A stretch of DNA of 44,514 nt from Candidatus Poseidoniaceae archaeon (GTDB lineage Archaea > Thermoplasmatota > Poseidoniia > Poseidoniales > Poseidoniaceae), in NCBI GenBank assembly GCA_028356125.1, contig JAOMTZ010000014.1, positions 1 through 44,514 on the forward strand. The letters run 5' to 3'. Below the pieces are notes generated by a model. The model saw only the letters and a program-made list of their open reading frames with translations, made no database searches and was not told where the DNA came from. Below are positions 4,960 through 11,330 of the stretch, piece by piece (the stretch's first letter is position 1; each line of letters begins with the position of its first letter). The position numbers and the translations under genes were made by a program.

Positions 4960-6726
4960 TCACTCCACAGTGGCTGAACGGTTTCTTTCGTCCTCTGCTT
5001 TGGCAACTGCGATTCCATCCTCAACATCGACCTTACGCAGGATTAATACTCCCGCAATAATCAATATTGATAGTGCAAATATACCTACTCTTGAGTCAAA
5101 CCACACGGTCATCAGAGCGTAAATCAGTGGGCCAAGTAAAGCAGCGACCTTACCAAAGAACCCGAAGAATCCGAAGAATTCTGCAGACCTTGTTTCTGGT
5201 ACCATTTGTCCAAACATCGAGCGTGCTAGACCTTGAGATCCACCAAGTAGTGCTCCTGCAAATACTCCAAGGAGTAAGAATTGGAAGAATACAGTCATTC
5301 CTAGTGGCTCCCATACCACAGAGCGAACTGTTTCAGGAATGACGTCCAGTGTTCCATCGCCAAGACTGGATGGGTGGTTTATTCCCAATCCTGTCATACC
5401 GTCAAATTCGCCGCCCTCTATACTATATGAGAATCTTGATTCATCCATTGTAGACTTGATAGATTCGAGGTTGTCTGCAGTCAAAATAACTTCTATTGGG
5501 ACAGCCTCGCCATCATCATCAAATGCCCATTTCACAGCATAGCCTTGCCTTTTTACATCTTCATTTTCTTCAACTGGAAGAATGTTTTCATATTCGAGCG
5601 CCCATTTTTGTTCGTCGTCATCAGGGAGTGCTGCAATGTTGTTCACCCCTTCTCTCGCTTCTGCAATGTATGTGCTTGCATCTTCATCCCAAGTGTATTG
5701 AACATCGTATTCGTCATGCTTCTCAAGTTCTAGTGGTGCGAATGATAGAGCACCTACAATTACGAAACACCAACATACGAGTGAAAATTGTAAAGCGCTC
5801 TTAGTGCCCCACTTCTCAGCTAACTTTGTGAACCCAATAGCAGCGGGTGCTGCCACGAATTGAATGATTAGAATTGTTAGGATTAGTCCGGTAGTCGTTA
5901 ATCCCAATACTACAATTCCAAACACTCCCGCTAGTGCAGTGACTGAATTTATTCCATCGATGAAACAGAAATATGCTATCATGTAGATGAATAGAGTTTT
6001 GAAACTCTTGATATCTCCTAATGTGGATTTAACTTCACCAAGTGCCATCTTAGTTGAATCGACAACACCCATTGGTTCCATTTCATTTTCGATGTGAGGT
6101 TCTGGAATCATCTTGAAAGTCATTTGAGCAAATCCTAGCCACCAAATTCCGGAAGATGCCATTACGAATGGAATAACCCATGTCCCATCAAGCGACAATA
6201 CCATCCCTAGATGTACCACAAGTAGTAGACCTCCTCCAAGGTAACCTGCTGCAAACGCTTTGTTTGAAATGGAATCCATTTCTGATTCATCACCCATGTG
6301 TGGAAGTAGTGCATTGTAGAATACACCTGCACCATTCAATCCCACATTGGCAATCATGAACATTATCATGGCCCAAACCCATCCCATCGAGACTCCTAAA
6401 TATGGAGATAGAGCTAGCAATATACAAGATACTGAACCTACAATTGTCAGTATCCTTAGCCACCACAATTTGATCATGCGTCTATCAGCAATCACTCCTA
6501 AAGATGGGGCGCATATTGCGACGAAGAGTGCACCAGCCATTACTGCCGCCGAAAACATTGCATCTGCAGTCCATTCCGAACCTAGGAATTTAGTTGAGAT
6601 ACCGTTTGCTTCAGCGAATAAATAAGCGAACCATGCGGGAAATACAGCCGTTGTAACTGAGGTTTCAAAAGCACTCTTTCCCCAATCATATGCACAATAT
6701 CCTCGTACGCGTTGGTCTTCTGCCAT
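4960..6726 (-). CDS. MFS transporter, UMF1 (Atg22-like) family, with large extracytoplasmic insertion
   Basis: The N-terminal YDWGKSAFETSVTTAVFPAW matches the family signature (YDWANSAF...VFPxYF), and GGSQGLARSMFGQMVPETRS followed by AEFFGFFGFFGK matches the conserved later segment. The protein is 588 residues, well above the usual 420-470. The extra length is a hydrophilic, acidic block at about residues 335-465 between two transmembrane helices, containing DEDAST, DDDEQKW and SIEGGEFDG. The substrate is unknown; the family includes nutrient and amino-acid exporters. The start is ATG at 6726. Its upstream region holds an 8-bp inverted repeat flanking a TATA-like sequence, so local regulation is plausible. 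Confidence 0.85.
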   Translation of the reverse strand: MAEDQRVRGYCAYDWGKSAFETSVTTAVFPAWFAYLFAEANGISTKFLGSEWTADAMFSAAVMAGALFVAICAPSLGVIADRRMIKLWWLRILTIVGSVSCILLALSPYLGVSMGWVWAMIMFMIANVGLNGAGVFYNALLPHMGDESEMDSISNKAFAAGYLGGGLLLVVHLGMVLSLDGTWVIPFVMASSGIWWLGFAQMTFKMIPEPHIENEMEPMGVVDSTKMALGEVKSTLGDIKSFKTLFIYMIAYFCFIDGINSVTALAGVFGIVVLGLTTTGLILTILIIQFVAAPAAIGFTKLAEKWGTKSALQFSLVCWCFVIVGALSFAPLELEKHDEYDVQYTWDEDASTYIAEAREGVNNIAALPDDDEQKWALEYENILPVEENEDVKRQGYAVKWAFDDDGEAVPIEVILTADNLESIKSTMDESRFSYSIEGGEFDGMTGLGINHPSSLGDGTLDVIPETVRSVVWEPLGMTVFFQFLLLGVFAGALLGGSQGLARSMFGQMVPETRSAEFFGFFGFFGKVAALLGPLIYALMTVWFDSRVGIFALSILIIAGVLILRKVDVEDGIAVAKAEDERNRSATVE

Positions 6727-6817: not shown

Positions 6818-7831
6818 ATGGGAAGAGAGCAGCCTGCGGAAAACACCCATGAGTCTTTGGTCAAGGCAATGAATATCATGGATGGTGTCGAATTCGATTT
6901 GCGCTTGACTGCTGACGACCAACTAGTAGTCCACCATGACCACATAGTCTCAGTATCAGATGATTTGTTAGATGGCCGTTCAGAATATGTTGAAGAATGG
7001 AATCTAAAAGAATTAGAAGAAGTTGGATTTTGTTCATTTGAGAAGTTGATGTCAGACAAAGAGTGGCTCGTTCCTTGGCAAGAACACTCGAAGGTGGCTT
7101 GCCTCGAAATTAAACGCAGCCTACCACACATTTCCAAAGACCCGACGAAAAGAATGGCTAGAGTGATGGAACTCGCCAGTGAAATGGTTGATGAGGCAGA
7201 AATCCACACTGAAGCAGCTGTATTCTATGCATTTCACCGACCAATGGCTAAGGTTGCTAAATTATCAGGTTCCAACCGGCCATGGTCTAGGTTGTTACCA
7301 ATAGTGCCGAGAACTGGCTCACACAATAGTAAGAGGTTTCGTGCAGCGCCAGAATTCATCGCTTATTCATTCGCCCGATTATTACGTTCTCAGAAAAGAT
7401 CTGGCGCACCAATGATGCCATGCGCAGTCGATTATTTTGAAGGGTTGAAGAAATACCTTCACATTGGAATGCCAGTGGGTCTCAAAGGACGTCAATTGAA
7501 ACGTTTGACAAAGGTTCGTAACGATTTCCCAGTTTATGTGTGGCCAGGTCACCCTGAATTGGAAAGAGATTTACTAGATGCAGGACTTTCACTATTGACC
7601 GATTATCCAGATCCTCAGATGAAATTACCCTGTGGTAGCGCTCGTTGGTTGAGACCTGCTACGATGCCTCTTAGCGAAGAAGAAGAAGCGGATTTACGAA
7701 AAGGAATCATTCCTGAAAATGTAACTCCATGGCATGAAATTAGTGATGAGAAACTAGGTTGGAACGCTGTTAGAATGATTGGTCACAGAGGATGTGGAAA
7801 AACACCCAGGCCTGTTATTCAATCTAAGTGA
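6818..7831 (+). CDS. Glycerophosphodiester phosphodiesterase (GDPD) family, apparently circularly permuted
   Basis: GDPDs hydrolyse glycerophosphodiesters to glycerol-3-phosphate and an alcohol within a TIM barrel. Residues 6-41 carry PAENTHES, DGVEFDLR (Glu25, Asp27) and VVHHD (His40); residues 95-99 are CLEIK (Glu97, Lys99); LLTDYPD near residue 260 is the last-strand motif. The first family motif (strand 1, GHRG, with a catalytic His and an Arg) normally precedes PENT by a few residues but is absent from the N terminus. An in-frame stop at 6797 excludes extension to find it. Instead MIGHRGCGKTPRP occurs at residues 320-332, after the barrel and a 45-residue acidic linker. All catalytic residues are therefore present in permuted order. 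Its 3' end overlaps convergent citrate synthase by 13 bases. It is probably cytoplasmic, since no signal peptide is seen. Confidence 0.78.
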   Translation: MGREQPAENTHESLVKAMNIMDGVEFDLRLTADDQLVVHHDHIVSVSDDLLDGRSEYVEEWNLKELEEVGFCSFEKLMSDKEWLVPWQEHSKVACLEIKRSLPHISKDPTKRMARVMELASEMVDEAEIHTEAAVFYAFHRPMAKVAKLSGSNRPWSRLLPIVPRTGSHNSKRFRAAPEFIAYSFARLLRSQKRSGAPMMPCAVDYFEGLKKYLHIGMPVGLKGRQLKRLTKVRNDFPVYVWPGHPELERDLLDAGLSLLTDYPDPQMKLPCGSARWLRPATMPLSEEEEADLRKGIIPENVTPWHEISDEKLGWNAVRMIGHRGCGKTPRPVIQSK

Positions 7832-9012
7832 CGAAGAGTTTGTTCTTCAGCGATATACTTAGGTCGATAAATTGGGATGCCCTTTCCATTTCGCATTATT
7901 GTTCTTTCATCGACAATTTGAGCGCCGATACCTGCAACTCTAGCCCAACCAAAGAAAGTAGTGTAATATTCAGCATCTTTCAAGCCGACGAAATTAAGCA
8001 ATGTACCACTTGCAATGTCGACATTCGCATTTGTGTTTCTGATTTTTGGATTTTCAGAAAGCACCATTGGAGCAACTTGTCTCAGAACTCTGATCGTTCT
8101 GAAGTATTCGTCATCAGGGCAGATTTCTTCACCGAGCGCGAATTGAGCAGTTGCTCGAGGGTCTTCACTTCTTAGGACAGCGTGTCCAAACCCGAATACA
8201 GGGCGCTTAGATTCCAGCTCCCCACGAACAAACCTCTCGACTTCAGCAGGGTCAGATGTTCCTATGCGTTGGACAAATTCGAAACATGATTGATTCGCTC
8301 TTCCATGAAGAGGACCAGATAGTGCATTCATTGCACCTGCCATAGATGAATATACAGTTGCATGACCACTAGCAACAGCCTTACCTGCAAATGTAGACAG
8401 GTTTCCTCCACCATGGTCCATGTGTAGTACGAGATATGTGGATAGAACGCGATTCATTACTGCTTTATCGACTCCATTAAGATCGATTGTGTTGGTAAAC
8501 CTGCCAACTAACGGTAGTGATAAATCATCAGCAGGGATATTTTCACTACGGTCTTCTCTGTATCTGAATATTAGGCCCATCAATCTAGGCATTCTAGCGA
8601 TGAGGTTCATGGCATCCTCTCGCCAATCATCTACACCACCCAACATTCCAAGTGTATGGATTCCAATAGACAACCAATCCATTGGGTGTCCATCCTTTGG
8701 GAGAGTTGCAAGCACCTGTTCTAATCCTTCAGGAATTGCTCCTCTTGATTGTAGTTCTTCACGGAACTCAACGGATTGTTCTATGGTCGGTAACTCCTTG
8801 TGAAACAGTAAGAATACGATGTCTTCTGGCGACATCATTGCTAATTCACTGATTGGATATCCGCAATAATGTACTCCTTCGCCTGGAGTGACATATGATG
8901 TTCTGCAAGTTCCCACCGGAACTCCTCGCAGTCCTGTATTCAGGTGGGCTGTGGTCAAGTCAAGTAGAGACTCTTCCTCACTCATTGATTCACCATCCGA
9001 ACACAGGGACAT
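7819..9012 (-). CDS. Citrate synthase, eukaryotic/mitochondrial-like type
   Basis: This enzyme condenses oxaloacetate and acetyl-CoA to citrate, the entry to the TCA cycle. The catalytic trio is visible: His236 in GPLHGRANQ, His277 in GFGHAVLR and Asp332 in NANVDIASG. GLRGVPVG near residue 28 and a GYP segment at 51-53 mark the N-terminal domain. GHAVLR followed by DPRA, the HMDHGGGN segment and SSMAGAMNALSGPLHG resemble mitochondrial citrate synthase more than the common archaeal and bacterial form (GFGHRVYK, LHADHE). The encoded start at 9012 gives 397 residues; ATG at 8985 (MSEEESLL) is an equally credible start and removes an odd N terminus. A stem-loop lies about 50 bases upstream. Confidence 0.92.
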   Translation of the reverse strand: MSLCSDGESMSEEESLLDLTTAHLNTGLRGVPVGTCRTSYVTPGEGVHYCGYPISELAMMSPEDIVFLLFHKELPTIEQSVEFREELQSRGAIPEGLEQVLATLPKDGHPMDWLSIGIHTLGMLGGVDDWREDAMNLIARMPRLMGLIFRYREDRSENIPADDLSLPLVGRFTNTIDLNGVDKAVMNRVLSTYLVLHMDHGGGNLSTFAGKAVASGHATVYSSMAGAMNALSGPLHGRANQSCFEFVQRIGTSDPAEVERFVRGELESKRPVFGFGHAVLRSEDPRATAQFALGEEICPDDEYFRTIRVLRQVAPMVLSENPKIRNTNANVDIASGTLLNFVGLKDAEYYTTFFGWARVAGIGAQIVDERTIMRNGKGIPIYRPKYIAEEQTLRHLD

Positions 9013-9584: not shown

Positions 9585-11330
9585 TCATTCACCCTGTGGT
9601 TCAAGGCGAACAATCGGAGTTAGCATTGTGTAGTTTGGTAACTGGGAAACATTCCCTAGTAGTAACTCGATTTCACCAACTCTGTCGGCGATTTGAATCA
9701 ACTCTTCTACAGATGCTTCTCTGCTAGATTCGACTAATTGAATCATCTCGTTTTCGAGTTCCTTTAATTGATTGGATTCATTCAAATGCTGCTCACTCAT
9801 TTCTTGGAACATAGTTTCGGTAATATTGTCTATACTCGCAGCTGTTTCGTTAACTCTAACTCTGTCTAGTCCTGAAATTCCAGATTCTCGATTTACTAGG
9901 AAATCTTCTCTTTCATCTACAGTCAAAGTAGTTGTGACATGTGGAATTAGATTTTCACCAACTAGCACTTGATGTAAATCGCTTCTCTCCTCAATTGTCA
10001 TCTCAGGAACTTCCCATCCGTCTTCCAAATCAGGCAATGGTGAATTCAACTCAACTCCTCCAATATCAGAGCCGGTGTAAACATGGTCCAGAGTCTCTGT
10101 TACCACGCGTGATGCAATTTCTTCAAGGTCTTCTCTCTGCGTGAATATTTCTTGTTCTGTGATTTGTACAGGAGTATCATCTAGTATGTCCCCAACATCT
10201 TCGCTAGTAACAACACGTTCACCCGATTCAATTGCTAGAGCGACCTTCTCAAAAGCGCTATCCGTGCCTCGCCAATCTCCGCCACCGAAAGCCACTATCT
10301 TAGCTAACATTGAGTCATCAAGCAAAAGGGCTCTACCGCTAGCAGATCTTCGTAAATGAGTGATCAGAGATGAAGAACTCGGACTTCTAATCCATATGCT
10401 AGTGGCTGAACGCATAACTTCCCAAAGCCTTCTTGCTTGCCATTCGTTGGAATCAACTCGGGATGTTGCGATAACTTGGACTCCTAAATTAAGGGCATAA
10501 TCAATTAGCATGCCTATTTCTGTAGCAATTCTTTCTTCAGCGAGATGAAGGTCGTCGATCGCAATCAAGTTTGCATGTGCTACGGCTTCTTCCCAGCCTT
10601 GGGGGAGAGAATCCCAACCTCTCATTGCTGAAGTTGATAGTAGGTGTACATTGCCATCTTGTCTTCGGATCATTGCCTGAACTGAGGCGCTAAGTATGTG
10701 TGATTTACCACAACCACTTTCGCCCAAAACAAGTAACGGGTTCATTGAAGTTCCAGGTTTGCTAATCACTTTTTCACAGGCACTAGATGCTCTTGAATTC
10801 TCTTCGACAACATGCCAGGATTTCCATGTGTTATGTTCTGATAAGTATTGTACTGGCGGCCACAGTGGCTTGAATGACAAATCTTTCATTCCAAAATCCG
10901 TTGAATTGGTTGAGTATCCTCTCTGTGAGTCCAATACTTCTGCCCAAATTGGCCTTCCGTCTTTGAGGACTCCCAAGTCTTCACTCAAATCATCTACTTC
11001 AATCTCTTCAGTAATCTGTTTCTCTCGCATTCCGCCTATTCTTTCAGCAGCTATTTGCGCAAGAGAACTACTTCCCTCATCCAAATCAATACTAACTTTC
11101 CAAGGTTTAGACTTTCCAAGGATGTTGTCTGCTACCATGTCGAAAACGGGGCGAGTCTTGACTCCAGTGCGTGTGATTATATCTCCACTTCTTGTGTCCT
11201 CTGCTGCTTCAATGCCTCGTAATTTATTCAGGTTTGAAAGTGCAGGTCTTCCAGTAGGTGTACTCTTTCCTAATGTCTGTCGAGCATTGGCCAAAGCAAG
11301 TTGGAGTTTTTCTTGGCGCGAAATATTCAT
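9585..11330 (-). CDS. DnaA-clade AAA+ ATPase with unusual N- and C-terminal regions
   Basis: The central 170-370 region matches DnaA domain III in order: a T-W-K-S-W-H-V-V segment, NPLLVLGESGCGKSHIL (Walker A 203-211), LIAIDDLH (Walker B, 255-262), VIATSR (288-291), an arginine-rich RRLWEVMRS and GDWRGTDSAFEK (sensor-2-like Arg354). The roughly 165 N-terminal residues are unrecognised. The C terminus (about 390-581) is acidic and ends in a predicted coiled coil (about 510-565), with no DnaA domain IV helix-turn-helix. Archaea initiate replication with Orc1/Cdc6, so this is unlikely to be an initiator; a loader- or Hda/DnaC-like regulatory role is inference. The start codon overlaps the stop of the upstream DUF835 gene by 4 bases, implying coupled translation. 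Confidence 0.72.
   Translation of the reverse strand: MNISRQEKLQLALANARQTLGKSTPTGRPALSNLNKLRGIEAAEDTRSGDIITRTGVKTRPVFDMVADNILGKSKPWKVSIDLDEGSSSLAQIAAERIGGMREKQITEEIEVDDLSEDLGVLKDGRPIWAEVLDSQRGYSTNSTDFGMKDLSFKPLWPPVQYLSEHNTWKSWHVVEENSRASSACEKVISKPGTSMNPLLVLGESGCGKSHILSASVQAMIRRQDGNVHLLSTSAMRGWDSLPQGWEEAVAHANLIAIDDLHLAEERIATEIGMLIDYALNLGVQVIATSRVDSNEWQARRLWEVMRSATSIWIRSPSSSSLITHLRRSASGRALLLDDSMLAKIVAFGGGDWRGTDSAFEKVALAIESGERVVTSEDVGDILDDTPVQITEQEIFTQREDLEEIASRVVTETLDHVYTGSDIGGVELNSPLPDLEDGWEVPEMTIEERSDLHQVLVGENLIPHVTTTLTVDEREDFLVNRESGISGLDRVRVNETAASIDNITETMFQEMSEQHLNESNQLKELENEMIQLVESSREASVEELIQIADRVGEIELLLGNVSQLPNYTMLTPIVRLEPQGE

Follow-up and report, generated by a model that had tools for sequence, protein, structure and literature searches.

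Canonical glycerophosphodiester phosphodiesterases (GDPDs; PF03009; UgpQ/GlpQ type; PDB 2pz0, 2otd, 3qvq) carry their HRG motif first, whereas in the enzyme described here HRG and barrel strand beta1 lie at the C-terminal end. Its gene is located at 6818..7831 on the + strand of the window, i.e. the whole stretch of 44,514 nucleotides that was analysed (contig JAOMTZ010000014.1 of Candidatus Poseidoniaceae archaeon, assembly GCA_028356125.1). Since the HRG-first order is absent, the product is, by its sequence, a permuted variant of the GDPD family and not an ordinary member. We consider it highly probable that a TIM (triosephosphate isomerase) barrel of this family underwent a single permutation in the stem lineage of the order Poseidoniales, which left beta1 at the C terminus and the termini in the beta1-alpha1 loop, with the GDPD reaction likely retained. 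The original prediction had proposed a circular permutation with strand 1 at the C terminus, and this is now supported by the motif order in two families, the rotation of profiles, a canonical sister family and two AlphaFold2 models. In the open-access literature we found no report linking GDPDs or glycerophosphodiester enzymes with circular permutation; as far as the accessible portions of two papers go, one mentions GDPD in a list of toxin domains (PMC3482391) and the other concerns Asgard archaea (PMC9723677).

Motif order in the window protein and its homologues

The gene encodes 337 amino acids plus the stop and is recognised by its PF03009 match and its homologues. Its motifs follow each other as PAENT (residues 6-10), GVEFDLR (23-29), HHD (39-41), CLEIK (95-99), TDYPD (261-265) and MIGHRGCGK (320-328), with HRG itself at residues 323-325 and not at the N terminus; the coordinates and motif positions given by the original prediction proved correct when the sequence was read again. 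In order to describe conservation we aligned 44 of 54 complete frames (alignment A1), leaving out L007, L011, L014, L015, L019 and L051 (X or near-copies), both L031 frames, L033 (X) and L057 (no HRG); a further alignment, A2, holds 36 sequences. Because L057 was left out, an invariant HRG is valid for A1 only, and the count over 120 reading frames given below is the fair one.

All the parts of the gene are on the + strand. The new N terminus, MGREQPAENT (6818..6847), begins at a point that in canonical enzymes is inside the HRG-to-ENT loop. Strand beta2 of the barrel (residues 23-30; 6884..6907) bears the ExD metal ligands E25 and D27, and is followed by HHD (6932..6940) with H40, presumably the second catalytic His, and by ExK (residues 97-99; 7106..7114) with E97 and K99. 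Barrel strand beta8 (258-261) and TDYPD with D262 occupy 7589..7612. The segment of residues 266-319 (7613..7774), with predicted helices at 287-294 and 305-308, bridges the former C-terminal region and the relocated strand beta1 with HRG (7775..7801; strand 320-323), where H323, R324, G325 and G327 are found. All these single residues are invariant in the 44 rows of A1, as is N9; catalytic or metal roles for N9, E25, D27, H40, E97, K99, H323, R324 and G325 are what we assume from knowledge of the family.

All 44 members of A1 match PF03009 at E <= 0.01, and the window protein passes the curated threshold (40.2 bits, cut-off 23.6). The alignment pairs residues 5-79 with profile positions 8-70, and the N terminus thus lacks the start of the profile, which is the HRG site. 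Permuted GDPDs can thus be misread as fragments, because Pfam gives only an N-terminal match without the profile start.

A homologue was present in 56 of 61 genomes (the window genome and 60 relatives). Regarding the motif order, we counted all the loci collected with distinct complete open reading frames (ORFs) of at least 250 amino acids that matched at E 1e-30 or better and did not run into a contig edge, 120 ORFs in total. HRG lies within the last 40 residues in 119 of them, an order that on this count is far beyond chance, and none of the 120, read stop to stop, has an HRG within 30 residues before ENT. Orthologues with an N-terminal HRG, which the original prediction had named as refuting, were therefore not found among these homologues.

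Over the phylum, the A1 profile gave a match in 182 of 389 evenly sampled genomes. From the listed rows, the match was strong (E 1e-82 or better) in 122 of the 127 genomes of the order's two families, and the listed matches outside the order had E 1e-10 or worse and covered the first part of the profile only. A scan of GTDB contigs, from which the best 80 of 238 loci were kept, gave a C-terminal HRG in all 76 loci not cut by a contig end. The titles of these best 80 loci are mostly Poseidoniales, Poseidoniaceae, Thalassarchaeum, Marine Group II and unresolved Euryarchaeota, with one Thermoplasmatota and one Phycisphaerae bacterium, and include the single-contig chromosome CM001443. A scan of viral contigs gave 57 pattern matches, none of them a relative.

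Two contigs deserve a separate mention. NZFX01000059.1 (L142) is the one titled Phycisphaerae bacterium; its protein is 84% identical to the window protein and its downstream neighbours match, and the title is probably wrong. The 25 kb contig PAJN01000001.1 (G024:C1; L031 / L156 / L186) carries two blocks of permuted GDPD plus citrate synthase that face opposite ways; their GDPD copies are 76% and about 40% identical to the window protein. This contig is probably chimeric.

Profile rotation, predicted structure and canonical relatives

The profile-profile alignment of A1 with 41 canonical GDPDs scored 145.3 in the native order, and a second native alignment placed the C-terminal GHRG of A1 opposite the canonical N terminus. 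When the C-terminal columns were moved to the front the score rose to 169.9 (a gain of 24.6), compared to 145.4 when they were shuffled first (one shuffle) and 145.5 when they were omitted. With a canonical hidden Markov model (HMM), 43 of 44 proteins scored higher after the rotation (median from 44.5 to 47.7 bits), and the rotated scores of the 44 proteins added up to 1998.7, a sum that in 50 shuffles never exceeded 1903.3. Pfam profile scores were also raised, with a gain of 3.4 bits for the window protein, in five hand-chosen proteins, four of which are among the larger gainers with the canonical HMM. The new termini bracket the canonical HRG-ENT loop: in the 44 rows of A1, EN is preceded by 6-16 residues and HRGxG is followed by 3-13; the canonical HRG-ENT gap is 3-5 residues in the 37 of 41 sequences measurable by pattern.

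AlphaFold2 predicted a confident barrel for the window protein (mean predicted local distance difference test, pLDDT, 91.4; predicted template modelling score, pTM, 0.90), in which residues 320-323 are the sole candidate for the eighth barrel strand. A second model, of a 31%-identical homologue, gave the same picture. The predicted TIM-barrel fold resembles solved GDPDs, and the best structural matches of both models are annotated as ordinary GDPDs. The original prediction had pointed to residues 315-330 as the place to look and had named an HRG outside the barrel as refuting; the model has a confident strand there, and such a placement was not seen. Putting together the loop, which is placed by sequence, and the barrel, which is placed by prediction, the old termini may be close to each other and the new ones may lie in one loop.

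The HRG strand is nearly invariable. In 16 congeneric genes of the same length, the ratio of non-synonymous to synonymous differences (pN/pS), uncorrected and with synonymous sites near saturation, was 0.124 for residues 313-329, compared to 0.252 for residues 263-312 and 0.201 for the whole gene. To judge from these ratios, the relocated HRG segment is maintained by selection.

The nearest relatives by taxonomy, the GDPDs of the sister family f3 of the same class (which we take to be probably Marine Group III), also belong to PF03009 but have the canonical order, with a full-length match from profile position 1 to 242 or 243 in 7/7 genomes searched. In all 41 collected canonical sequences H[RK]G occurs no later than residue 25 of the domain, although this set was picked with a profile favouring HRG first; indeed the first canonical profile was selected by the HRG-first pattern (14 of 15 sequences used) and is biased. 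The unbiased check of the canonical order is given by the PF03009 matches outside the order Poseidoniales, and all the 73 listed start at profile position 1, at least two further matches (G145 and the second of G357) not being among those listed. Inside Poseidoniales, one ORF (G176) starts at profile position 2, two canonical proteins of genus g19 at 1, and short paralogues at 2-10. In the tree a branch supported at 99/98 sets the permuted rows apart; this tree holds 26 of the 44 permuted rows, has a midpoint root only, and the long branches of the short paralogues and of the permuted rows meet in it, as the program warned. Because the sister family and the other relatives outside the order are canonical, the permuted state would most simply be the derived one, arisen on the stem of Poseidoniales.

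Some Poseidoniales also carry proteins in the canonical order. L092 and L222 (genomes G052 and G312; genus g19 of family f2) are canonical GDPDs with a hydrophobic N-terminal stretch; G312 holds both a permuted and a canonical GDPD, and in G052 only the canonical copy was found. L099, L118 and L137-L141, from f2 genomes and one f1 genome, are short GDPD-like proteins (frames of 193-236 amino acids) in canonical order that start with GHRLG. The six of family f2 have a PKWLFG-like tail and are apparently too short for a full barrel.

Origin of the permuted order and rival explanations

The two ends of a TIM barrel are normally adjacent at its bottom and can readily be joined; a circular permutation is usually explained by a tandem duplication that is later trimmed. 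In the reading that we favour, the old C terminus became connected via a linker to strand beta1 and HRG, and the protein now begins and ends in the beta1-alpha1 loop that separates HRG from ENT, giving a barrel in the order beta2 to beta8, helical linker, beta1. The accessible part of PMC3320104 gives duplication and fission-fusion as the usual models of origin.

The original prediction had also noticed a near-match between the two DNA ends of the gene, which is located where it had been put, and had read it as a possible trace of a duplication or deletion while allowing for chance. Its exact core is 10 nucleotides, read in two different frames; 15 congeners share only 5-7 nucleotides between their gene ends. 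Among 2000 random pairs of 60-nucleotide pieces of the window, 12 reach 10 nucleotides, so that the match is unusual at about 1 in 170. Moreover, a permutation that has the age of the whole order would not be expected to show its trace in a single genome, and a trace private to one genome cannot stem from an order-wide event. For these reasons the near-repeat was rejected as a relic of duplication; it is most likely due to chance.

Several observations weigh against the permutation as we read it. The rotation gave the window protein only 0.9 bits (50.8 to 51.7) with the canonical HMM, and 12 of 50 shuffled tails did equally well or better. When each protein was compared with 50 shuffled tails the gain was weak for many of the same genus, and for L020 and L029 the real tail was equalled or outscored by every one of the 50 shuffled tails. 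The small gain of the window protein is explained by the extra residues that widen the HRG-ENT loop. By these scores, rotation restores the unpermuted profile match weakly for the window protein alone and clearly for the family, and it is on the family that the case for permutation is built. The sole exception among the 120 ORFs, L057 (G039:C3:17200-20100), is a permuted GDPD without HRG, about 36 residues shorter than its congener L058, whose 3' end is missing and both neighbours are kept; in five other genomes of the genus of G039 that were searched the gene is complete to the end, and the absence may be a real loss or a draft-genome error. None of the 120 homologues has HRG at both ends, and we saw no intermediate with a tandem or partial duplication, which may still be compatible with lost intermediates. 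Finally, the pairing of beta1 with its two barrel neighbours is one that we infer from the models, and the structural alignments to solved GDPDs stop short of the last strand. These last two points would favour a C-terminal HRG that is an independent motif outside the barrel, in an enzyme without strand 1 and the first catalytic His. Nevertheless, both confident models place the only eligible eighth strand there, rotation lifts the profile score by the amount given above, and H323, R324, G325 and G327 are the same in 44/44 rows, which makes this explanation very improbable.

The permutation also has to be weighed against errors in the data and against a change of function. The window genome is a draft of 41 contigs and 65% complete, which would leave room for an assembly artefact or local rearrangement, but the identical order of the 119 ORFs, with conserved neighbours, in other assemblies led us to reject this idea, to which we give practically no credence. 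A wrong start codon with a normal HRG upstream is just as far-fetched and was rejected too: the stop-to-stop frame is 343 amino acids, and the 6 in-frame residues before the ATG hold no HRG, in agreement with its absence before ENT in the 120 homologous ORFs. Termini placed in the beta1-alpha1 loop would lie on the catalytic face, and at the mouth of the active site they might have changed the substrate, e.g. to a lysophospholipid or another phosphodiester, so that the enzyme would no longer be a GDPD. This is rather unlikely, since all the catalytic motifs are retained and the best structural matches are ordinary GDPDs by annotation.

Function, gene neighbourhood and known permutations

Because the catalytic motifs are invariant in A1, the permuted protein is most likely a GDPD-type metal-dependent phosphodiesterase, and the window protein is probably an enzyme still active. 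The retained HRG, ENT, ExD, HD and ExK suggest that it would hydrolyse, in a metal-dependent reaction, a glycerophosphodiester to sn-glycerol 3-phosphate (G3P) and an alcohol. An N-terminal signal was not apparent by eye in the window protein, which suggests a cytosolic location. The permuted gene is the sole PF03009 match in 43 of the 61 genomes searched and therefore bears on the G3P supply of Poseidoniales; a second PF03009 match occurs in 10 of 24 f2 genomes, and in the six f2 genomes read this second match is a short protein in canonical order.

According to the accessible text of PMC6461757, whose title refers to the marine abundance of Poseidoniales, the enzyme for the archaeal glycerol-phosphate backbone is encoded in 0 of 270 genomes of the order and a G3P dehydrogenase in nearly all its genera; the membrane lipids are predicted to be mixed. 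It is for these lipids that the G3P supply matters. In our sample of Poseidoniales genomes the G3P dehydrogenase family was found in 10/10 and the glycerol-1-phosphate (G1P) dehydrogenase family in 0/10. In two sister-family genomes with the canonical GDPD, G3P dehydrogenase was found in neither and G1P dehydrogenase exceeded the cut-off in one; the genomes compared are incomplete. A G3P-yielding enzyme fits the lipid enzymes of Poseidoniales. That the permutation was adaptive and tied to the switch to sn-glycerol-3-phosphate lipids, the enzyme with its termini at the mouth of the active site having specialised in salvaging G3P for lipid synthesis, is a doubtful idea; the link amounts to one coincidence and not to a test, because permutation and lipid switch fall on a single branch.

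The gene is followed by a convergent citrate synthase (7819..9012, -; PF00285), which overlaps its 3' end by 13 bases and serves as synteny marker: it comes after the GDPD in 75 of the 80 GTDB loci, and the remaining five stop 0 to 190 bases past the gene. A divergent transporter of ATG22/MFS (major facilitator superfamily) type (4960..6726, -) lies upstream, as in 35 of the 80 loci. Farther along in this archaeal genome, and in a conserved neighbourhood, the ORF at 9585-11330 (-) weakly matches the ATPase domain of bacterial DnaA (PF00308, 1.5e-7).

Compared with canonical GDPDs, the permuted enzyme would have its termini in the beta1-alpha1 loop, and in the predicted structures beta8 is separated from beta1 by 58 residues in the window protein and by 97 in L055. 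Permuted variants of a beta/alpha barrel reportedly fold correctly, to judge from the title of the work of Luger et al. from 1989; that barrel was permuted in the laboratory, whereas the GDPD permutation is natural. A catalytic TIM barrel that is permuted in nature, fixed throughout an order and unpermuted in the sister family would be a clean case of how barrels tolerate cuts between two catalytic motifs. Regarding natural cases, the accessible part of PMC2213659 describes transaldolase B and class I aldolase as a circular permutation of the (beta/alpha)8 barrel. There, however, the shift is of two units and between two enzymes, whereas in the GDPDs it concerns one strand within one family that has canonical sister forms.
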